Assembly: GCA_019670725.1 (NCBI GenBank)
Contig: AP024629.1
Coordinates: 2,294,001-2,358,000, forward strand
Length of the DNA: 64,000 nucleotides
Origin: Alphaproteobacteria bacterium SO-S41
Lineage (GTDB): Bacteria; Pseudomonadota; Alphaproteobacteria; Micropepsales; Micropepsaceae
Direction of reading: 5' to 3'
The notes beneath the pieces were generated by a model. The model made no database searches. It worked only from the letters and a program-made list of their open reading frames with translations, and had not been told where the DNA came from. Shown here piece by piece: positions 38,295-47,102 of this stretch. Position numbers and translations under genes: made by a program. The number at the start of each line of letters is the position of its first letter. Positions within the stretch are counted from its first letter, which is position 1.

Positions 38295-39500
38295 CTAACG
38301 CCCTTTGTGGAATTCGACGCGGACGCGGTAGGCGCCGTCGGGCGTATCGGCCCAGCGCCAGCGGATGACGGCGTTGTAGGCGGACTCGCCGAAGCCGTGG
38401 CCTTCGGGATTAGCGCCCAGCAGCAAGGCGTTGGTGACATCCCCGTTCTCGAGGAACACCGCGACTTCGGCCGCGCCCTCGATGCCTTTCGCCTTGGCGT
38501 CCGGTGGGTAGATCGGCGTGCGGCGGTGCCAGGGCTCGGGCGCCGGTTTGAGCTGGCCGACATCCACCGCAACATCGTCGGGCGAGCCCTCGATGCGGAA
38601 GCGGCCGCTGAAGAGATAGCGCCCGGCAACACCCGCGGGAAATGTCGCCTTCTTCAGGCCCTCGGCCAGCGCCTCGCCAAAGCCGTAGCCGGGCGGATGT
38701 TCGTAGGCGATCTCGACATGGGTGACGGCGCCGGCGGCGTCGAGCGTGATGATCGTTTCGACCTGGCCCTCGATGCCGCCTGCGTTCAGGGCGGCGAGCG
38801 GATAGCGCACGCGGACAGGTTCGACGGCCTCGGGTGCCATGCCGACGGGGCTGCCATCGGAAGCCGTCGGCGTATCGAACTGGAACTTGACGCGGACCTG
38901 GTAGCGGCCGGGGTGGTCCTCGGGGAAAATCCAGAGCTTCACGGCCTCCACCGCCGCCGGGCCGAAGCCGTGGCCGGTGGGAGTTTCGGAGAGCAGCGCC
39001 ACATCGTCCACTTCGCCGTCATCGCCGATCTCGGCCGCAACGACGGCCTCGCCGGGGAGGCGCGCCTTCCAGGCATCATGCGGGTAGTTCGGGAGGATGC
39101 GCTTCACCGGCCTGGGCGCTTCGGGCAGCGCGGCCGGGGGATCGGGGAGATCGAAGGTGATCTTGATGCGGTAGCGCCCGGCGATGTCTGCGGGAAACCG
39201 CCAGGCCGCGAGGGCGGTCGCGGCGGCGGTCGCGAACCCCTGCCCCGGCGGCGTTTCGGCGGCGATGTCGACCTTGGTGACGGCGCCAGCTGCATCGAGG
39301 GTCAGGATGGCGCGGACGGCGCCTTCGGTGCCGGCCCGTTCGGCGGCGGGGGGATAGACGGGCTGCGTGGTCGTCAGCGGTGCCGGGGCGACGGGAAAGT
39401 CCTCGATGGGACGGCCGGTGGCTGGGTCGAGAACGGGCGACGGCCCGGCCGCGGTCGCGGAACCGATCAGTGCCAGTGCGAAGACGATGGCGCGCAGCAT
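38295..39500 (-). CDS. Secreted protein with four tandem TonB C-terminal-like domains
   Basis: A 401-residue protein. A signal peptide (MLRAIVFALALIGSATAA) and a short linker are followed by four repeats, each like a TonB C-terminal domain: about residues 45-117, 133-208, 228-303 and 326-398. Each repeat has YP-x-x-A near its start, a G-x-V/A strand, D/N-G-x-V-x-x-V, a P-x-G-x-G-F segment, A-x-x-A/G-x-x-x-W/F and a final GRY/AYR-x-R/K-x-x-F strand (for example HPPGYGFGEALAEGLKKATF and NPEGHGFGESAYNAVIRWRW). No membrane anchor or long Pro-rich arm is seen, so it cannot work as a normal energy transducer. It lies 72 bases downstream of tonB on the same strand. Function unknown. Confidence 0.8.
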   Translation of the reverse strand: MLRAIVFALALIGSATAAGPSPVLDPATGRPIEDFPVAPAPLTTTQPVYPPAAERAGTEGAVRAILTLDAAGAVTKVDIAAETPPGQGFATAAATALAAWRFPADIAGRYRIKITFDLPDPPAALPEAPRPVKRILPNYPHDAWKARLPGEAVVAAEIGDDGEVDDVALLSETPTGHGFGPAAVEAVKLWIFPEDHPGRYQVRVKFQFDTPTASDGSPVGMAPEAVEPVRVRYPLAALNAGGIEGQVETIITLDAAGAVTHVEIAYEHPPGYGFGEALAEGLKKATFPAGVAGRYLFSGRFRIEGSPDDVAVDVGQLKPAPEPWHRRTPIYPPDAKAKGIEGAAEVAVFLENGDVTNALLLGANPEGHGFGESAYNAVIRWRWADTPDGAYRVRVEFHKGR

Positions 39501-39572
39501 GATCCCCCCGGCATGATGCCGGAGGGACCCTTGCGATCGTTGCCGGGTGCGTCAAGCACGCGGCGGTTGCGT

Positions 39573-40202
39573 CTAGTTCAGCTTGAAGCGGACCGTGACG
39601 CGGTAGGTGCCGGGCTGGGCGTCGGCGAACTTCCACTGCCAGACGGCGTCGGCGGCTGCTTCGCCAAAGTGGTAGTTCTCAGGCGTTTCGCTGACGATCT
39701 GCACATCGCTGACGGCCCCGCCGGGTGCGACGGTGATCTGCACGGTCGCGCTGCCCTCGATCTCGCGATCCTGGGCGCGGACGGGGTATCTGACGGGCAC
39801 GCGCTCAGTCGGCTGCGGCGCCGCCGTGGGGACCGTCTCCGGCAGGCTGGTGACCGTCGGCTCGCCCGGTATGGGCGGCTGCGGCGGGATCGGGATCGGG
39901 TCCACCTTGGGTGCGTCGGGGACGATCGGCGTCGGCCGCGGCTGGACGCGTGGAATCTCCTTCAGCTTCGGCGGATCGGCCTGGATTTCGGGGATCGGGG
40001 GCGGCGGCGGTTTAACGTAAGGCTCGATCGTAATGACCTGCGGCTCAGGATCGGCCTCAAGAGCGGGCACGCCGATCAGCTGGTTCACGATCACCCAGCC
40101 CACGGCGATGTGGAACAGGATCGACAGACCGACGGTCCATCTGAGGTCGTTCTGTTTGGATCGTTCCGGCGCTGGTGCGCCAAGGGGTAACGCATATGCC
40201 AT
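39573..40202 (-). CDS. TonB family energy transducer
   Basis: A 209-residue protein: short cytoplasmic N-terminus (MAYALPLGAPAPERSKQND), one transmembrane helix (VGLSILFHIAVGWVIVNQLI) with the H that is functionally important in TonB, a Pro-rich periplasmic arm (about 55-120, with KPPPPPIPEI), and one TonB_C domain (RYPVRAQDREIEGSATVQIT to YRVTVRFKLN). It would couple ExbB/ExbD to outer-membrane receptors. The ATG at 40202 has GGGAG upstream and was preferred to an upstream in-frame start. No exbBD is adjacent; the nearest set is 5 kb away. Confidence 0.88.
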   Translation of the reverse strand: MAYALPLGAPAPERSKQNDLRWTVGLSILFHIAVGWVIVNQLIGVPALEADPEPQVITIEPYVKPPPPPIPEIQADPPKLKEIPRVQPRPTPIVPDAPKVDPIPIPPQPPIPGEPTVTSLPETVPTAAPQPTERVPVRYPVRAQDREIEGSATVQITVAPGGAVSDVQIVSETPENYHFGEAAADAVWQWKFADAQPGTYRVTVRFKLN

Positions 40203-40281
40203 GTTGAACTCCCGTGCCCGCCCGGGTCGCGCGGGGTGCGCGCCCGGCTGCATCACGGCGCGCCGGGATTGGGGCGGCATT

Positions 40282-40324
40282 GTGACGTAGGGTCACTTTT
40301 GTTGCGGGTGCGACGTAGTGTCAG
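40282..40324. promoter_or_regulatory. Paired direct repeats in the tonB / kaiC-like divergent gap
   Basis: GTGACGTAGGGTCAC (40282-40296) and GCGACGTAGTGTCAG (40310-40324) match at 12 of 15 positions and are offset by 28 bases. The first is also an inverted repeat GTGAC-N5-GTCAC. They lie upstream of both the leftward tonB and the rightward KaiC-like gene and may bind a regulator of either. Confidence 0.4.
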
Positions 40325-40359
40325 TGCGCGGCCGCCGTCCGCCCGCAGAAAATTCGCTT

Positions 40360-40384
40360 GGAACTGGGAGCGTTTGGGATCGTT
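40360..40384 (+). promoter_or_regulatory. EcfG-type general stress response promoter
   Basis: GGAAC (40360-40364) and CGTT (40381-40384) are separated by exactly 16 bases, matching the alphaproteobacterial EcfG sigma-factor consensus GGAAC-N16/17-CGTT. Transcription would start near 40391, leaving a leader of about 25 bases with GGAG as ribosome site before the GTG at 40416. Exact sequence, spacing and position all agree; sigma-factor use is inferred. Confidence 0.7.
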
Positions 40385-40415
40385 GTGCGTTGTTGACAAA
40401 AGTTCCGGAGCTAGT

Positions 40416-41927
40416 GTGACTGAGCATTCTTCCGCCGAAAAACCGGCCCTGTCGGGGACCAAGGCGCGTACTGGGGTAACGGGGTTAGACGACGTGTTGG
40501 CCGGCGGTCTGTCGCGCGGCCATGTCTTCCTGCTGGAGGGCGAACCAGGCGCCGGCAAGACCACGATTGCGTTGCAGTTCCTGCAGGAGGGCGAGGCCCG
40601 CGGCGAGCGTGGACTCTACATCACCCTATCCGAGACGGAGGTCGAGCTGCGCGAGGGCGCGGCGTCACATGGCTGGACGCTAGGCCCGGGTATCGAGGTG
40701 TTCGAACTGGCGCCGCCCGAGAGCCTGCTCAACGACGAGCACAAGCAGTCCCTGCTCTACTCGTCGGACCTCGAACTGGGCGAGACGACGCAGTCGATCT
40801 TCGACGCCGTGGAGCGCGTCAAGCCCGACCGGGTCGTGATCGACAGCCTGTCGGAGATCCGCCTGCTGGCGCAGAGCTCGCTGCGCTATCGCCGGCAGAT
40901 CCTGGCGATCAAGCATTTCTTCTCAAAGCTCGGTGCGACCGTCGTGCTGCTCGACGATCTGACGGCGGACTCGCTGGACAAGACGGTGCATAGCGTCGTG
41001 CACGGCGTGGTGCGGCTGGAAGAGCTGGCGCCGGCCTATGGCGCCGAACGGCGGCGCATGCGGATCATCAAGTATCGCGGGCAGCGCTATCGCGGCGGCT
41101 TCCATGATTTCACGATCACCACGGGCGGCGTGAACGTGTTTCCGCGGCTGGTATCGGCGGAGTATCGCGGTGCGGAGCAGCGAACACGGGTTTCAAGCCG
41201 TATCCAGGCGCTGGATACGCTGCTGGGCGGCGGGCTGGACAGCGGATCGAGCACGCTGATCCTGGGACCGGCCGGCACCGGCAAGTCGCTGATCGCGATC
41301 CTGTTCGTCGCCGCGGCCGTCGCGCGCGGCGAGAAGGCGGCGATGTTCATCTTCGATGAAGAACTGGGCTTGCTCTACGATCGGATGAAGCCGCTGGGGA
41401 TCGACCTGCAGAAGCTGGTCGCAGACGGGAACCTCTATCTGGAACAGGTCGATGCGGCGGAACTGTCGCCCGGCGAGTTCTCGCACCGGGTGCGCAGCCG
41501 CGTCGACGAAGACGGGATCAAGACCGTGCTGATCGACTCGGTCAACGGCTATCAGGCCGCGATGCCGGAAGAGAATTCGCTGATCCTGCACATGCACGAG
41601 TTGCTGCAATACCTGAACCGGCGCGGCGCGACGACGTTCCTGACGGTCGCGCAACACGGTCTCGTCGGCGACATGAAGGCACCGGTGGACGTGACATATC
41701 TCGCCGATACCGTGATCCTGCTGCGCTATTTCGAGGCCCTGGGCAAAGTGCGGCGCGCGATGTCGGTGATCAAGAAGCGCACCGGCCCGCACGAAGATAC
41801 GATCCGCGAATATCTGATCGACGGTCGCGGCCTGACGGTCGGCGCGCCGCTGGATCAGTTCCAGGGGGTGCTGCGCGGTGTGCCGACCTTCGTTGGCGGC
41901 GATGGCGCGTTGATGGGGATCGAATAG
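40416..41927 (+). CDS. KaiC-like double-domain RecA ATPase
   Basis: A 503-residue protein with two KaiC-type domains. Domain I (about 10-245) has Walker A GEPGAGKT (42-49), SETEVEL near the catalytic-glutamate site and DRVVIDSLSE. Domain II (about 255-500) has Walker A GPAGTGKS (284-291), FIFDEELG and VLIDSVNGYQ. At the place of the cyanobacterial KaiC phosphosites S431/T432, the aligned residues are T427 and Y428 (DVTYLADT), so autophosphorylation chemistry may differ. The GTG start at 40416 has GGAG 6 bases upstream. No KaiA or KaiB gene is nearby. The following TTG of the hybrid kinase directly adjoins its stop. Confidence 0.88.
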   Translation: MTEHSSAEKPALSGTKARTGVTGLDDVLAGGLSRGHVFLLEGEPGAGKTTIALQFLQEGEARGERGLYITLSETEVELREGAASHGWTLGPGIEVFELAPPESLLNDEHKQSLLYSSDLELGETTQSIFDAVERVKPDRVVIDSLSEIRLLAQSSLRYRRQILAIKHFFSKLGATVVLLDDLTADSLDKTVHSVVHGVVRLEELAPAYGAERRRMRIIKYRGQRYRGGFHDFTITTGGVNVFPRLVSAEYRGAEQRTRVSSRIQALDTLLGGGLDSGSSTLILGPAGTGKSLIAILFVAAAVARGEKAAMFIFDEELGLLYDRMKPLGIDLQKLVADGNLYLEQVDAAELSPGEFSHRVRSRVDEDGIKTVLIDSVNGYQAAMPEENSLILHMHELLQYLNRRGATTFLTVAQHGLVGDMKAPVDVTYLADTVILLRYFEALGKVRRAMSVIKKRTGPHEDTIREYLIDGRGLTVGAPLDQFQGVLRGVPTFVGGDGALMGIE

Positions 41928-43991
41928 TTGAAACGGGTCGACGCCCGTGCCCGCCGCGTTCTGGTCCTTGCACCCAATGGGCGTGATGGCGCCCTCGCCT
42001 GCGCGCTGCTGGCGGAAGCCGGCGTCGAGGGCGAGGTCTGCAAAGATCTGCCTGCCCTCGTCGCCGAATTGAACGTCGGCGCCGGCGCGGCAATCATCGC
42101 CGAAGAAGCCTTGCGATCGGCCAATATCACCGGGCTGGCGGGCTGGCTGCAGGATCAGCCGCCCTGGTCGGATTTCCCGATCATCCTGTTGTCGAGCCAC
42201 GGTGGCGGGCTGGAGCGCAATCCCGCCGCGCAGCGCTGGTCGGAGGTGCTGGGCAACGTCACGGTGATCGAGCGGCCGTTTCATCCCACGACCTTGACGG
42301 CCGCGGTGGCGAGCGCGGCGCGCTCGCGCTATCGCCAGTACGAGGCCCGGGCGCGAGCGGACGATCTGCGCGAGGGCGAGGAGCGGCTGCGCACCGCCAT
42401 GAAGGCGGCGAACCTCGGCGCCTGGACGCTCAATCTCGTCACGTCGAAGCTGGAGGCCTCGCCGGAGTCCAAGGCGCATTACGGGCGCGGGTCCGACGAG
42501 CTGTTCGACTATCCGACGTTCAAGGCGGCGGTGCATCTCGACGACTGGGGCAAGATCGAAGCGGCCGCTCAGCACACGCTGGCGACCGGCCAGGACTACT
42601 GGGTCGTCTATCGCGCCGTGTGGCCGGACGGCTCGATGCATTGGATCGATGCGCGCGGGCAACCGATGCGGAGCGCTCACGGCAACATCTTCGGCCTGAC
42701 CGGCGTCACCGCCGATATCTCGGCGCGCAAGAGCGCGGAACTGGAGCGCGAGAAGCTGGTGGCCGATCTCGCGCGCGAGCGCATCGCGCTGTCGGATCTC
42801 AATGCGACGCTGGAAGAACGCGTCGTGCAGCGGACCAACGAGTTGATGGTTGAGGTCGCGGCGCGCGAGCGGGCGCAGGAGCAGTTGCGCCAGGCGCAGA
42901 AGATGGAGTCGATCGGCCAGCTCACCGGCGGCGTCGCACACGATTTCAACAATCTGCTGATGGCCGTGATGTCGGCGCTGAATCTGCTGCGCCGCCGCAT
43001 CCCCGAGACGCCGCAGACCAAGCAGTTGATCGACGGCGCCATCCAGGCGGCCGAGCGCGGGGCTTCGCTCACCCAGCGCCTGCTCGCCTTCGCGCGACAG
43101 CAGGATCTGAAGACGAGCGCGGTGGACCTGAGCAAGCTGATCGGCGGGATGGGCGATCTGCTGGATCGCTCGCTGGGGCCGCGCTTCGTGCTGACGACGA
43201 CTATCGCGCCCGGCCTGCCGCCGGCGCAGGTGGATGCCAATCAGTTGGAGCTCGCCATCCTCAATCTCGCGATCAATGCGCGCGACGCCATGGCCGATGG
43301 CGGCAGCATCGATATCTCGGTGCGCGAGGAGGCGGTGTCAGGCCATGCCACCCTGCCCTCCGGCGCGTTCCTGGCGATCCGGGTGGCCGACAACGGGACC
43401 GGCATGGACGAAGCGACGCTGAAGAAGGCGATCGAGCCGTTCTTCTCGACCAAGGCCGTGGGCAAGGGAACGGGGCTCGGCCTTTCGATGGTGCACGGCC
43501 TCGCCGTGCAGCTGGGCGGTGGGTTCACGCTGGAGAGCACGCCGGGCGCCGGTACGGTGGCGACCATCTATGTCCCGCGCGCGACAGGCGTGACGGTGGA
43601 TGTGGCGGTCGAAGAGAAGACCGCCCGCGACACGCCGGGCGCCCGCGTTCTGGTGGTGGACGACGACGTGCTCGTCGCCTCGCTGACCACGGCGATGCTG
43701 GAGGAGCTCGGCCACACGGTGACCGAGGTGCATTCGGGGGCGGCCGCGATGGAGCTGCTGGAGGCCGGCGAGCCGGTCGATTTGATGATGACCGACTATC
43801 TGATGCCGGGCATGACGGGGATGGACCTGGTGCAGGCGGCGCGGCGATTGCGCCCTGCCCTGACCGTGCTGATCGCCACGGGCTTCGCGGAGGTCTCCGA
43901 CGGGTTGCCGGCTGATATCCCGCGGATCTCGAAGCCCTATGACCTCGATGCGCTGGACGCGCAATTGGCGGCGTTGCGGGTCGCGAGCTAG
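41928..43991 (+). CDS. Hybrid sensor histidine kinase (REC-like, PAS, HisKA, ATPase, REC)
   Basis: A 687-residue cytosolic protein without membrane helices. An N-terminal receiver-like domain (1-125) seems to lack the phosphoacceptor Asp (IIAEEAL at that strand). A PAS domain (about 155-268, ending GLTGVTADISARKSAE) and a coiled linker follow. The HisKA motif is QLTGGVAHDFNNLLMAVMSA with H338; ATPase boxes are NLAINARDAM, VADNGTGMD and GKGTGLGLSMV. A C-terminal receiver has Asp in LMMTDYLMPGMTG and K in ISKPYDLD. The TTG start adjoins the stop of the KaiC-like gene, implying one operon and a common pathway. Confidence 0.88.
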   Translation: MKRVDARARRVLVLAPNGRDGALACALLAEAGVEGEVCKDLPALVAELNVGAGAAIIAEEALRSANITGLAGWLQDQPPWSDFPIILLSSHGGGLERNPAAQRWSEVLGNVTVIERPFHPTTLTAAVASAARSRYRQYEARARADDLREGEERLRTAMKAANLGAWTLNLVTSKLEASPESKAHYGRGSDELFDYPTFKAAVHLDDWGKIEAAAQHTLATGQDYWVVYRAVWPDGSMHWIDARGQPMRSAHGNIFGLTGVTADISARKSAELEREKLVADLARERIALSDLNATLEERVVQRTNELMVEVAARERAQEQLRQAQKMESIGQLTGGVAHDFNNLLMAVMSALNLLRRRIPETPQTKQLIDGAIQAAERGASLTQRLLAFARQQDLKTSAVDLSKLIGGMGDLLDRSLGPRFVLTTTIAPGLPPAQVDANQLELAILNLAINARDAMADGGSIDISVREEAVSGHATLPSGAFLAIRVADNGTGMDEATLKKAIEPFFSTKAVGKGTGLGLSMVHGLAVQLGGGFTLESTPGAGTVATIYVPRATGVTVDVAVEEKTARDTPGARVLVVDDDVLVASLTTAMLEELGHTVTEVHSGAAAMELLEAGEPVDLMMTDYLMPGMTGMDLVQAARRLRPALTVLIATGFAEVSDGLPADIPRISKPYDLDALDAQLAALRVAS

Positions 43992-44005
43992 CCGCTTCTG
44001 GCGGA

Positions 44006-44356
44006 CTATTCGGGCTGCCAGAGCTCGATCGGGTTGTTCTCCGGATCGTGGATGCGCGCGAAGCGCCCGACGCCCGGCATGTTCCATTCGGGCTTGGTGA
44101 TGACCTCGATCCCCGCCGCCTGAAGCGCCGCGATCAGACCGTCGAGGTCGTCGACGCGCAGGTTGAGCATCCACTGGCGGTCGGCGGCGAAATAATCGGT
44201 GTCGGCCGCGAAGGGCGAGAAGACAGTCGTCCCGGCCTCAGTGTCCCACTGGCCGTACGGCCCCGCGCCGACGCCGAGATGCTCGGCGTACCAAGCGCTC
44301 AGCGCTTTGGGGTCCTTCGCCCGAAAGAAGAAGCCGCCGATCCCCGTCACGCCCAT
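44006..44356 (-). CDS. VOC (glyoxalase/bleomycin-resistance fold) family protein
   Basis: A 116-residue protein with the paired beta-alpha-beta-beta-beta fold of the vicinal-oxygen-chelate superfamily: GIGGFFFRAKDPKALSAWYA at the N-terminus, a middle LNLRVDDLDGLIAALQAAG, and the closing RIHDPENNPIELWQPE, whose Glu is a usual metal ligand. Substrate unknown; members range from glyoxalases to antibiotic-binding proteins. The ATG at 44356 has GGTGGAG about 8 bases upstream. An inverted repeat just upstream may be its operator. The hybrid kinase gene ends 14 bases from its stop on the other strand. Confidence 0.85.
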   Translation of the reverse strand: MGVTGIGGFFFRAKDPKALSAWYAEHLGVGAGPYGQWDTEAGTTVFSPFAADTDYFAADRQWMLNLRVDDLDGLIAALQAAGIEVITKPEWNMPGVGRFARIHDPENNPIELWQPE

Positions 44357-44373
44357 GGCCGTCTCTCCACCGT

Positions 44374-44394
44374 CCTGATCACTGCATTATCAGG
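44374..44394. promoter_or_regulatory. Inverted repeat CCTGAT-N9-ATCAGG before the VOC gene
   Basis: A perfect 6-base inverted repeat with a 9-base spacer lies 18 bases upstream of the VOC gene start, within its probable promoter or leader. Size and symmetry suit a dimeric repressor. The regulator is unknown. Confidence 0.35.
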
Positions 44395-44428
44395 CTAAGG
44401 GCGGCGGCGCATGCAAGGTGCCGTACAA

Positions 44429-44455
44429 AGAAAAACGGCGCCCGTTGGGGCGCCG
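44429..44455 (-). terminator. Rho-independent terminator of the exbB-exbD-tonB operon
   Basis: Read leftward, a perfect 8-base stem (CGGCGCCC / GGGCGCCG) with a 4-base loop is followed by TTTTTCTTT. It lies 25 bases after the tonB stop at 44481. The strong GC stem plus T-tract is the classical intrinsic form. Confidence 0.9.
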
Positions 44456-44480
44456 CTTTCGTTTCCTTGGGTCGTTCCGC

Positions 44481-45074
44481 CTATTGGAGGCGGAACTTCA
44501 CCGTGACCGTGTACCGGCCGGGCTGGGCGGTGGCGAACTGCCACTGCTGCACGGCGGCGGCTGCCGCTTCGCCGAACCCGAACCCTTCCGGGTTTTCGGA
44601 CGCGACCTGGACCGCGGTGACGATGCCACCGGCACCAACCGTCACGTAGATCGTCGCGCTACCCTCGCGTTCACGCTCCTCGGCGCGGCGCGGGTATTTC
44701 GGCTGGACCCGCTTGGTCGGCTTGGGAGCCGCGGCGGGGATCGTCTGGTCGGAGGTCGTGGTCGTCGCGTCCGAAGTGTCCTCAGCCGGGGGCTGGGGCG
44801 GGATCGGCAGCGGCGGCACGTCGGCCGGCGGCGGGATCGGGGGTGGGAATCGCGGACGCACGCGCGGCTTTTCAGGCGGCGGCGGCGGCTCATCCGGAGG
44901 CGGCGGCGGCGGCGGTGGCGGAGGCGGCGGCGGTGGGGGCGGTACAAAGACCTCCACCGCGTTGTCCTCAACCAGCGCTTTCTGCTCTGCAATGAAGCCG
45001 GCCAAGAAGTAGTAGCCGACTGCCATATGCAGCGCGATCGCGATGAGGAGCGTGTACCAGAAGGAGCGTTTCAT
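44481..45074 (-). CDS. tonB: TonB family energy transducer of the exbBD operon
   Basis: A 197-residue protein with a transmembrane helix at the very N-terminus (FWYTLLIAIALHMAVGYYFL, including the conserved His), an extreme poly-proline arm (about 16 consecutive prolines near residue 45-60, then PPPPPEKPRVRPRFPPP), a Ser/Thr-rich stretch and a TonB_C domain (KPTKRVQPKYPRRAEERERE to YTVTVKFRLQ). It couples the ExbB/ExbD proton motor to TonB-dependent receptors. It follows exbD by 21 bases and ends in a strong terminator, so exbB-exbD-tonB form one operon. Confidence 0.93.
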   Translation of the reverse strand: MKRSFWYTLLIAIALHMAVGYYFLAGFIAEQKALVEDNAVEVFVPPPPPPPPPPPPPPPPDEPPPPPEKPRVRPRFPPPIPPPADVPPLPIPPQPPAEDTSDATTTTSDQTIPAAAPKPTKRVQPKYPRRAEEREREGSATIYVTVGAGGIVTAVQVASENPEGFGFGEAAAAAVQQWQFATAQPGRYTVTVKFRLQ

Positions 45075-45095: not shown

Positions 45096-45524
45096 CTACA
45101 CGACTTCTTCGGCGATCAGCGCGACCTTGTAGAACCCGTAATCCTGCAGAACGTTCATCACGCGCATGACGGAACCGTAGATCACGTCACGGTCCGCGCG
45201 GACCATGATGCGATTCTCGCGGTCGCCGAGCGTGCGGGTCATCACCGCATCGCCCAGGCGATCAAGCGTCGTCGCGTTGTCGCCGAGGAAGATGTCGCCG
45301 TTCTTCTGGATCGAGACGAACACCGGATCCTTGGGATTCGGCGTCGGCTCGGCATTGGACGGCGGCAGATCGACCGCGACGTTCACGGTGGCGAGCGGAG
45401 CCGCCACCATGAAGATGATGAGGAGAACCAACATGACGTCCACGAAGGGAACGACGTTGATCTCGGAGTTATCGGAGTAGTTCTTCGACGATTTGTTCTC
45501 GTCGCCGCCTACTTTAGCGCCCAT
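45096..45524 (-). CDS. exbD: ExbD/TolR family biopolymer transport protein
   Basis: A 142-residue bitopic protein of the proton-driven ExbBD motor. A cytoplasmic N-terminus (KSSKNYSDNSEINVVPFVDV) leads into the single membrane helix, where the Asp in VVPFVDVMLVLLIIFMV is the essential proton-carrying residue. A periplasmic domain follows (ATVNVAVDLPPSNAEPTPNP, FVSIQKNGDIFLGDN, IMVRADRDVIYGSVMRVMN). It lies 29 bases after exbB and 21 before tonB. Confidence 0.95.
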   Translation of the reverse strand: MGAKVGGDENKSSKNYSDNSEINVVPFVDVMLVLLIIFMVAAPLATVNVAVDLPPSNAEPTPNPKDPVFVSIQKNGDIFLGDNATTLDRLGDAVMTRTLGDRENRIMVRADRDVIYGSVMRVMNVLQDYGFYKVALIAEEVV

Positions 45525-45553: not shown

Positions 45554-46777
45554 TTAACCCGCGCTCTGATCAAGCTGGCGCGACACGCGCACCAGCAACT
45601 CGGACGAGAAGGTATCCAAACGCTGATTGTAGGCAGCAATGCGGCGGGCGAAGACGTTGTAGAAAACAACCGCCGGGATAGCTGCGAACAGACCGATCGC
45701 GGTGGCGAGCAGCGCTTCGGCGATACCGGGGGCAACAACGGCCAGGTTCGTCGACTTCGACTGCGCGATGCCGATGAACGAGTACATGATACCCCAGACC
45801 GTACCGAACAGACCGACGAAGGTCGCGATCGAACCGACGGTCGCGAGGAACGCCATGCCCGAACCGAGTTCGGCGCTACGCGAGGCCTGGGCGATCGACA
45901 TCGCCGAACCGATACGCTGCGTCAGGTGATCACGCTTTTCGCCGGTGGACGCGGGGCCCTGGGCGAAAGTGAGATCGATTTCGTTCGCCGCGGCTTCGAC
46001 CATCTGGGCCGGAGGCGTCGAGCGGTCCTTGCCCGAGATGGACTTGGACAGATCCTGCAGCGGGGCGTTCGACGAACGGAACTCGTTGAGGAAGTTCGTC
46101 GTGCGGCGGTTCAGGCCACCCAGGTAGATCAGCTTGGAGATCAGGATCGCCCAGGAGATGACCGAGCAGATGAACAGGCCGATCATCACGACCTTCACCA
46201 CCGGGTGCGCGATCATGAACAGGCCGTAGAGCGAGTATTCGTCTTCGGCGGGGATCAGGACCGGGATACCGAAGAAGTTGGCTTCGATCGGCTTCTTCGG
46301 CGGCGGGGGCTTGGGGGCCTCAGGCGCGGCCGGCGGAGCGGCGACGGGGGCCGGCGCAGGCGCGGGCTCCATGATGGGCTGGCCGTCGGGGCCGAGAACG
46401 GGCTTGCCGTCCGGGCCGAGCTTGGGCTGCATCGGCGCGGGCGCCGGGGCCGGCGCGGGGCCAGCAACGGGGAGACCGTCGGGGCCGATCACGGCCGGGG
46501 CGGCACCGGGGGCCGCGGCAGGCGCGGGACCGGCGACCGGGAGGCCGTCAGGGCCGACCGCGGGAGCGGCGCCCGGCGCAGCGGCCGGGGGCGCACCAGC
46601 AGGAGCCGCGGCGGGCGGCGTGCCCGGAGCGGGCGTCGCGGGCGCAGCGGCCGGCGGCGTCGCCGGAGCGGGCGTCGTCTGGGCGAGCACGGCAGGCGAC
46701 GCGACGGTCAGACCTACAAAAATCGCGCCGGCCGCAAATCCGCGGACGAGACGCGACGCAAAGCGTACATCTGTCAT
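45554..46777 (-). CDS. exbB: ExbB/TolQ family proton channel protein with long Pro/Ala-rich periplasmic extension
   Basis: A 407-residue protein. A signal peptide (LVRGFAAGAIFVGLTVASPA, cleavage near VLAQ) is followed by about 150 residues rich in Pro and Ala with repeated GPDGLPVAGPAP-type units, then the MotA/TolQ/ExbB channel: a helix at VVKVVMIGLFICSVISWAIL, a cytoplasmic loop, and paired helices AFLATVGSIATFVGLFGTVW and APGIAEALLATAIGLFAAIP with the usual Thr/Gly pattern. It drives TonB with ExbD. The ATG at 46777 begins the signal peptide and has GAAGGTGG upstream. First gene of the operon. Confidence 0.92.
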   Translation of the reverse strand: MTDVRFASRLVRGFAAGAIFVGLTVASPAVLAQTTPAPATPPAAAPATPAPGTPPAAAPAGAPPAAAPGAAPAVGPDGLPVAGPAPAAAPGAAPAVIGPDGLPVAGPAPAPAPAPMQPKLGPDGKPVLGPDGQPIMEPAPAPAPVAAPPAAPEAPKPPPPKKPIEANFFGIPVLIPAEDEYSLYGLFMIAHPVVKVVMIGLFICSVISWAILISKLIYLGGLNRRTTNFLNEFRSSNAPLQDLSKSISGKDRSTPPAQMVEAAANEIDLTFAQGPASTGEKRDHLTQRIGSAMSIAQASRSAELGSGMAFLATVGSIATFVGLFGTVWGIMYSFIGIAQSKSTNLAVVAPGIAEALLATAIGLFAAIPAVVFYNVFARRIAAYNQRLDTFSSELLVRVSRQLDQSAG

Positions 46778-47102
46778 AAGCACCACCTTCGTTGACCCTC
46801 TAATTGCCGCGGCGTGCCGCGTGCACTTCCTGAATTTCTGTCTCGCGGACGCAAGGCACGCCCGCGGGTGTCGGTTCCTTAGGCTTCGCAACGAATGGAG
46901 AGATCGGCGTTTCCGTTTCCGGACGCATTAGGGAGCCTACGGCCCCGCTAAGCAATAACACCAAGCGCGCGCGACTTTTGTCGCTCCGCGCCTTTTTAAA
47001 CCCACCACCCCGAGCTAACCCGGCCGGGTACATAAACGCAGCGTCATGTGCCCCGCAAGCATATTGTAACCAAGATCACTCCCAGAGACACAAGTGCAAA
47101 AT
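46778..47102 (-). promoter_or_regulatory. exbB upstream region with weak promoter-like element
   Basis: A 325-base gap without a convincing gene. Read leftward, TACAAT (47063-47068) is preceded at 19 bases by TTGTGT (47088-47093), a weak housekeeping-type promoter just beyond the MBL gene stop. It predicts a leader of about 280 bases for exbB. The leader contains a GC-rich inverted repeat (around 46968-47000) beside a T/A run, but no riboswitch or clear Fur-type box was recognised. Confidence 0.35.

Follow-up and report, generated by a model that had tools for sequence, protein, structure and literature searches.

The stretch analysed here, a window of 64,000 nucleotides, carries on its forward strand two adjoining genes that encode a KaiC-like ATPase (503 aa; 40416-41927) and a soluble hybrid histidine kinase (687 aa; 41928-43991), with an EcfG-type promoter motif located upstream (40360-40384). 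The ATPase contains two RecA/KaiC domains (PF06745), both with a Walker A motif, and GTG 40416, preceded by CCGGAG, is its most plausible start. A longer reading frame (563 aa) from 40236 was rejected, as its start would precede the promoter and alignments with homologs begin at about residue 9-16. The stop codon of the ATPase gene (TAG, 41925-41927) is followed directly by the TTG start of the kinase (41928), just as the earlier sequence-only reading had described, and no transmembrane-length hydrophobic stretch is evident in either protein.

The KaiC-like protein can be aligned over 480 residues with the cyanobacterial circadian KaiC (TIGR02655), with which it shares the two KaiC domains and the Walker motifs. 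However, its matches in genome searches and the PDB are at about 30% identity, and its scores fall below the family cut-offs for both TIGR02655 (168.9 vs 546.25 bits) and PRK09302 (259.7 vs 408 bits). The sequence-only reading had noted that neither KaiA nor KaiB lies nearby, and this absence in fact extends to the whole genome, where searches found neither. Moreover, KaiB is present in just one of the 28 other genomes with the gene pair, which supports the proposed KaiC module without clock partners. Here, T427 and Y428 align with Ser431 and Thr432 of cyanobacterial KaiC, as had been suggested for the phosphosite pair. While the Ser431 position is Ser/Thr in the KaiC-like subfamily, the Thr432 position is Tyr in this protein, and an (S/T)(Y/F) pair instead of adjacent Ser/Thr residues is found throughout the whole subfamily. 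Since tyrosine is, to our knowledge, no canonical KaiC phosphosite, this pattern makes T427 the likely single candidate.

The domains of the kinase are arranged as a degenerate receiver, PAS_3, HisKA (H338), HATPase_c, and a C-terminal receiver (D623). Its N-terminal domain (residues 1-146; 41928-42365) matched no Pfam family and has a receiver fold, as judged by an AlphaFold2 model (pLDDT 92.8) whose best structural match is PleD (Z 16.2, 130 residues, 2.2 Å) and by a profile match to receivers (E 3e-6). The phosphorylation residues are lost in this domain, where Ala15 and Pro16 replace the acidic pair, Glu59 occupies the Asp position, and Arg116 replaces the Lys. These changes recur among 129 partner kinases, with the acidic pair turned into A-P (122 and 126 of 129 at the two positions), the Lys into Arg (127/129), and the Asp position held by E, S, or A in most and by D in 21. 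The HisKA domain (PF00512) is of the HDFNN type and not of the HWE/HisKA_2 type (PF07536 or PF07568) of stress kinases. Although the description of a soluble PAS hybrid kinase fits this particular protein, a PAS domain occurs in 31 of 128 partner kinases only, and we therefore rejected PAS as the defining sensor of the family; the constant part is the N-terminal degenerate receiver.

A hybrid kinase gene lies beside kaiC at each of the 80 orthologous loci checked, the orthologs compared for this pairing being 74-78% identical. The two genes usually overlap by 4 nt, and plasmids as well as chromosomes of different lineages carry them together. This constant pairing, together with the adjoining stop and start codons, supports the earlier view of a two-gene unit. 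By eye, no conserved third gene (e.g. a response regulator) was seen in the five flanks listed among the Bradyrhizobium, Tardiphaga, and Pseudomonas loci. The divergence of the receiver domain follows that of KaiC (Spearman 0.83, 0/300 permutations), though inheritance of the two genes together would by itself lead to such agreement of tree distances. Contact of the KaiC-like protein with its kinase is presumed.

The full promoter motif, GGAAC-TGGGAGCGTTTGGGAT-CGTT, ends 31 nt before the GTG start of the KaiC-like gene, which bears out the claim of a GGAAC-N16-CGTT box at the right distance and places the predicted transcription start at about 40391. It is the same as the motif reported for Rhizobium etli EcfG1 (GGAAC-N16-CGTT; PMC3892343), while that of Sphingomonas melonis is GGAAC-N17-20-GTT, with GGTT variants among the targets (PMC6599016). 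The main text of the EcfG regulon papers checked, including these two, makes no mention of KaiC. A sigma-70-like promoter for the pair was also looked for, and none was found. The genome itself encodes the general stress response machinery in a locus at 4.031-4.035 Mb, where PhyR and NepR exceed the NCBIfam and Pfam cut-offs, respectively, alongside an ECF sigma factor of the EcfG type and a PhyK-like kinase with domains of the HWE/HisKA_2 type (PF07536/PF07568). The EcfG motif is found twice between the divergent phyR and nepR-ecfG, one facing each side, and the regulon of this genome, sampled from 80 stretches, includes other likely targets of the stress-regulon type, e.g. entericidin and a PNPOx-like protein, with a box 24-36 nt before the gene. 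The motif is not rare by itself, as GGAAC/CGTT with a spacer of 15-18 nt gives 2 matches in the window against 1.56 expected. Rather, it is the position before kaiC, the footprint in relatives, and the genome's own likely regulon that argue for more than chance, and we take the pair to be a probable EcfG target.

A survey of KaiC-kinase pairs for EcfG motifs, as the sequence-only reading had recommended, gave a lineage-bound result. Among 57 alphaproteobacterial orthologous loci, half of them from one family, 28 have an exact GGAAC/CGTT motif within 200 bp upstream, where about 0.1 would be expected. The spacers in these 28 are only 16 or 17 nt long, and every other length from 12 to 21 gives zero or one match. 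In the same loci, the motif occurs 28 times in 11.4 kb of upstream sequence (sense) as against once in 473 kb elsewhere, a more than 1000-fold difference in density, and the mean identity of the spacer sequences is only 35%. The motif-bearing loci belong to five whole-genome families, with 21 of the 28 in a single one. A relaxed form of the box is present in 11 of 14 Bradyrhizobium/Tardiphaga loci. However, none of 20 alphaproteobacterial plasmid copies has the box, and it is missing in 18 of 19 more distant loci (<63% identity). From the plasmid copies we conclude that the EcfG wiring is lineage-specific, and since many alphaproteobacterial copies lack the box, the module does not depend on EcfG control for its function. 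EcfG wiring as a constant of the family was thus rejected, given the plasmid set and the different box in Pseudomonas.

Taken together, we consider it probable that the two genes form a KaiC-kinase operon that is independent of KaiA and KaiB, transcribed by EcfG, and placed under the general stress response as one of its transcriptional outputs, with the kinase reading KaiC. In such a scheme, PhyR would free EcfG from NepR, and RNA polymerase with sigma-EcfG would transcribe both genes as one operon, which would therefore make the module an output of this response. The KaiC-like double-RecA ATPase, presumably a hexamer, would work without KaiA or KaiB, its conformation set by the nucleotide state and/or autophosphorylation of T427. 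The hybrid kinase would read this state, most likely via its conserved N-terminal degenerate receiver, and phosphate may then pass from H338 to D623 of the C-terminal receiver and on to a phosphotransfer protein or regulator. Gene layout, box, and genome-wide searches for KaiA and KaiB thus confirm what the sequence-only reading had observed. Its interpretation stands as to the EcfG promoter, the two-gene unit, the KaiA/KaiB-independent module, and the hybrid kinase, with four amendments, which concern the direction of signalling, the PAS domain, Y428, and the reach of the EcfG wiring. As for signalling within the general stress response, the HisKA type of the kinase suggests an output rather than an input.

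The box might instead have arisen by chance or be a leftover, with transcription of the pair constitutive or driven by a different factor. This would agree with the genome-wide count of GGAAC-N16/17-CGTT (91 matches vs 57 for the reversed control) and with the sampled sites, about half of which fall within coding-like frames. Nonetheless, spacer-specific conservation before kaiC in several families, the density difference noted above, and a box-to-start distance equal to that of other likely regulon members make this very improbable. Equally improbable is a KaiA-less timer of the proto-circadian or hourglass kind, comparable to the KaiB-KaiC timers of Rhodobacter and Rhodopseudomonas. Such a timer would be consistent with the retained KaiC core and first phosphosite, but it is contradicted by the lack of KaiB here and in 27 of the 28 other genomes with the pair, as well as by scores far under the clock-KaiC cut-offs.

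The two proteins might also be co-expressed and yet act separately, for instance as a RecA-like ATPase with another target and a kinase driven by PAS input alone. The PAS domain in this kinase would allow for that, though we find it rather unlikely, since the pair stays together at all 80 loci and is carried as a unit across lineages, with PAS lacking from most partner kinases and the N-terminal receiver constant. Slightly less likely still is an input role, in which a KaiC-gated kinase would pass phosphate on to PhyR, with positive feedback arising from the EcfG promoter. While such a loop would be closed if EcfG controlled a signalling gene upstream of it, and phyR itself has the same motif, the same pair also occurs in Pseudomonas, whereas PhyR is confined to Alphaproteobacteria according to a review (PMC8069551). 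Moreover, a HisKA/HDFNN kinase with a C-terminal receiver is unlike the HWE/HisKA_2 PhyK-like kinase beside ecfG.

Outside the cyanobacteria, relatives of KaiC occur widely, with a role that is unclear. The output reading would connect a large KaiC subfamily without KaiA and KaiB with a specific stress regulon, with a kinase that always accompanies it, and with a partner domain lacking annotation. It points to a recruitment of KaiC proteins as stress switches apart from timekeeping, and it turns the vague notion that KaiC affects stress into one directly testable through EcfG dependence, T427, and KaiC-receiver binding. No literature that connects KaiC to EcfG, to the general stress response, or to ECF sigma factors turned up in our searches, and those for KaiC and AlgU returned only unrelated matches. 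KaiC-like stress proteins have already been described for Pseudomonas and Methylorubrum; within the literature searched, the EcfG link of the pair and the degenerate receiver appear to be unreported.

As described in a review (PMC8069551, summarising Iguchi et al., 2018), Methylorubrum extorquens AM1 has a kaiC2-kaiR2 gene pair without kaiB that controls temperature-dependent UV resistance, and its KaiC2 has a single phosphosite serine, S426. Going by that description, it resembles our locus as an alphaproteobacterial pair of kaiC and a partner without kaiB; the parts of the review consulted do not connect KaiC with PhyR/EcfG. A relative in Methylobacterium bullatum shares only 52% identity and lacks an EcfG box. 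The KaiC-like proteins studied in environmental Pseudomonas (Terrettaz et al., 2023, as cited in PMC11832031 and PMC11372060) are presumably orthologs of the ATPase described here. Pseudomonas orthologs share 74-77% identity with it and have the hybrid kinase next to them in every locus, although nearly all these kinases are without a PAS domain. Instead of the EcfG box, which is absent, 64 of 66 have GAAC-N18/19-TCAAG upstream, a motif resembling an AlgU/RpoE-type promoter. A tentative, more far-reaching view would be that the pair is a mobile module for stress, which various Proteobacteria have each brought independently under an ECF stress sigma factor of theirs, several alphaproteobacterial families using EcfG and Pseudomonas one of the AlgU/RpoE type, with the nucleotide or T427 phosphorylation state of KaiC read directly by the dedicated degenerate receiver as an energy- or time-dependent checkpoint after the onset of stress.

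Computation on the window places a KaiC-like ATPase of 503 residues (GTG 40416 to 41927, plus strand) directly ahead of a hybrid histidine kinase of 687 residues (TTG 41928 to 43991, plus strand), with the kinase TTG coming immediately after the kaiC stop. Upstream, 31 nt from the GTG, lies a match to the EcfG box (GGAAC-N16-CGTT, 40360-40384, plus strand), while a CCGGAG stretch precedes the kaiC start and no sigma-70-like promoter was found within 39500-44600. Since the likely next gene (an ORF called at 44006-44356) is on the minus strand, the transcription unit consists of two genes. By eye, the translations around the pair show TonB-like energy transducer genes on both sides and, on the right-hand side, ExbD- and ExbB-like genes as well, all on the minus strand (39573-40280, 44481-45074, 45096-45524, and 45554-46891). 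An inverted repeat (GTGAC-N5-GTCAC, window 40282-40296) in the gap that separates kaiC from the divergent tonB-like gene, some 65 bp ahead of the EcfG box, is a possible regulator site.

Taken by itself, this box is no more than chance; the window holds two GGAAC/CGTT matches against 1.56 expected (spacers 15-18), and genome-wide there are 91 for the EcfG motif versus 57 for a reversed control. Three further tests, namely the stress-response genes of the genome, its sampled motif sites, and an ortholog footprint, settle the box as real. Here, a single locus (L037 4234-7666; contig C1, ~4.031-4.035 Mb) encodes PhyR (above the NCBIfam cut-off), NepR, an EcfG-type ECF sigma factor, and a PhyK-like HWE/HisKA_2 kinase, and the gap between phyR and nepR-ecfG carries the N16 motif in both directions, as before kaiC. 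Motif matches in this genome are mostly N16, with fewer N17. Moreover, 36 of 80 sampled sites fall outside long coding-like frames, many of these followed after 24-36 nt by a start codon that has a ribosome-binding site, and the 31 nt spacing at kaiC is typical. Genes behind some sampled sites encode entericidin, a PNPOx-like protein, hemerythrin, BON, and DUF4142, all kinds usual in stress regulons.

For the footprint, we scanned 200 bp upstream at 57 alphaproteobacterial loci that encode a protein related to this KaiC. The exact motif occurs in 28 (spacer 16 in 13, spacer 17 in 15) versus about 0.1 expected from shuffled sequences, and spacers 12-15 and 18-21 together gave two matches. In fact, the sense-strand density is 28 in 11.4 kb upstream of kaiC versus 1 in 473 kb elsewhere in the same loci, with a mean identity between motif spacers of only 35%. 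Five families have the motif (f1, f39, f60, f66, and f87), f66 alone contributing 21 of the 28, and at KaiC identities of at least 63% it is present in 27/38 loci. The sequence-only reading of a correctly placed EcfG promoter is thereby borne out.

The relaxed form GGAAC-N16/17-nGTT is found in 11/14 Bradyrhizobium and Tardiphaga loci, and EcfG-dependent genes of Sphingomonas melonis include GGTT variants (PMC6599016). None of 20 copies carried on alphaproteobacterial plasmids, including those of Agrobacterium, Sinorhizobium, Ensifer, Sphingobium, Azospirillum, and Methylobacterium, has the exact box, and one has a relaxed match. The EcfG box is likewise absent upstream of kaiC in all 66 Pseudomonas loci, 64 of which (0.12 expected) carry GAAC-N18/19-TCAAG with a variable spacer, a count that overstates independence as these loci are closely related, though the spacers vary. 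This box, 54-128 bp upstream of kaiC (L042-L120) and in none of 71 alphaproteobacterial loci, appears to resemble an AlgU/RpoE-type promoter (consensus GAACTT-N16/17-TCnnA), and could place kaiC under envelope-stress control.

The KaiC-like protein has the PF06745 domain in two copies and keeps both Walker A motifs. Its alignment with cyanobacterial KaiC spans the full protein, but it scores far under the clock-KaiC cut-offs. T427/Y428, proposed earlier as a phosphosite pair, do align with cyanobacterial S431/T432, but across 135 relatives the first position is S/T and the second Y/F wherever aligned. Methylorubrum extorquens KaiC2 has S426 as its sole phosphosite, according to PMC8069551, which would fit a single candidate phosphosite at T427.

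The kinase comprises PAS_3, HisKA, HATPase_c, and a C-terminal receiver, with H338 conserved in 126/129 sequences and D623 in all 90 extending that far, and a transmembrane-suggesting hydrophobic stretch was seen neither here nor in the KaiC-like protein. The soluble PAS hybrid kinase described previously therefore stands for this locus, but PAS is present in only 31/128 partner kinases. The N-terminal 146 residues, matching no Pfam family above its cut-off, are highly conserved (signature LAPxGRD, QPPWSD, LGNVTFLERPFHPTTL). A profile of this region hits PDB receiver domains (E 3e-6), and the AlphaFold2 model (pLDDT 92.8) likewise matches receivers (Z 16). Because the acidic pair is replaced by A-P and the conserved Lys by Arg almost everywhere, and the Asp position is mostly E, S, or A (D in 21/129), this domain is a degenerate receiver. 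The kinase adjoins kaiC at 80/80 named loci, with a 4-nt overlap at most loci. Divergence of the receiver domain tracks that of KaiC more closely (Spearman 0.83) than does the kinase core (0.64), which would be consistent with a docking role, though joint inheritance would give the same.

As noted from the sequence, neither KaiA nor KaiB is near the pair, and in fact neither was found anywhere in this genome; among 28 other genomes with the pair, one has KaiB (G496 C41:20814-21056), on a contig other than the pair's. Horizontal spread of kaiC is likely, because close relatives are patchy in the organism's own family (only three genomes), the nearest named matches are from Bradyrhizobium and Pseudomonas, and many copies are located on conjugative plasmids. 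Large, often conjugative plasmids of Alpha- and Betaproteobacteria carry the pair, for example in Agrobacterium fabrum (pAt, L172), Caballeronia (p2, L181), and Sphingobium cloacae (L183), which suggests that it spreads as one unit.

Most likely, PhyR would free EcfG from NepR, and EcfG would induce both proteins; the KaiC-like ATPase would adopt a state set by nucleotide or T427 phosphorylation, which the kinase may sense by contact through its degenerate receiver, with a phosphorelay to a putative target following. The pair is more likely an output than an input of the stress response, because the kinase is of the HisKA type, not HWE/HisKA_2, and the pair also occurs in Pseudomonas, a gammaproteobacterium without PhyR (confined to Alphaproteobacteria, according to PMC8069551).

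No paper linking KaiC to EcfG was found in the literature searched, in which regulon papers were covered by their main text, so an earlier mention is possible. KaiC-like stress modules are already known; what this analysis adds is the EcfG promoter with its footprint, the alternative Pseudomonas box, and the degenerate receiver.
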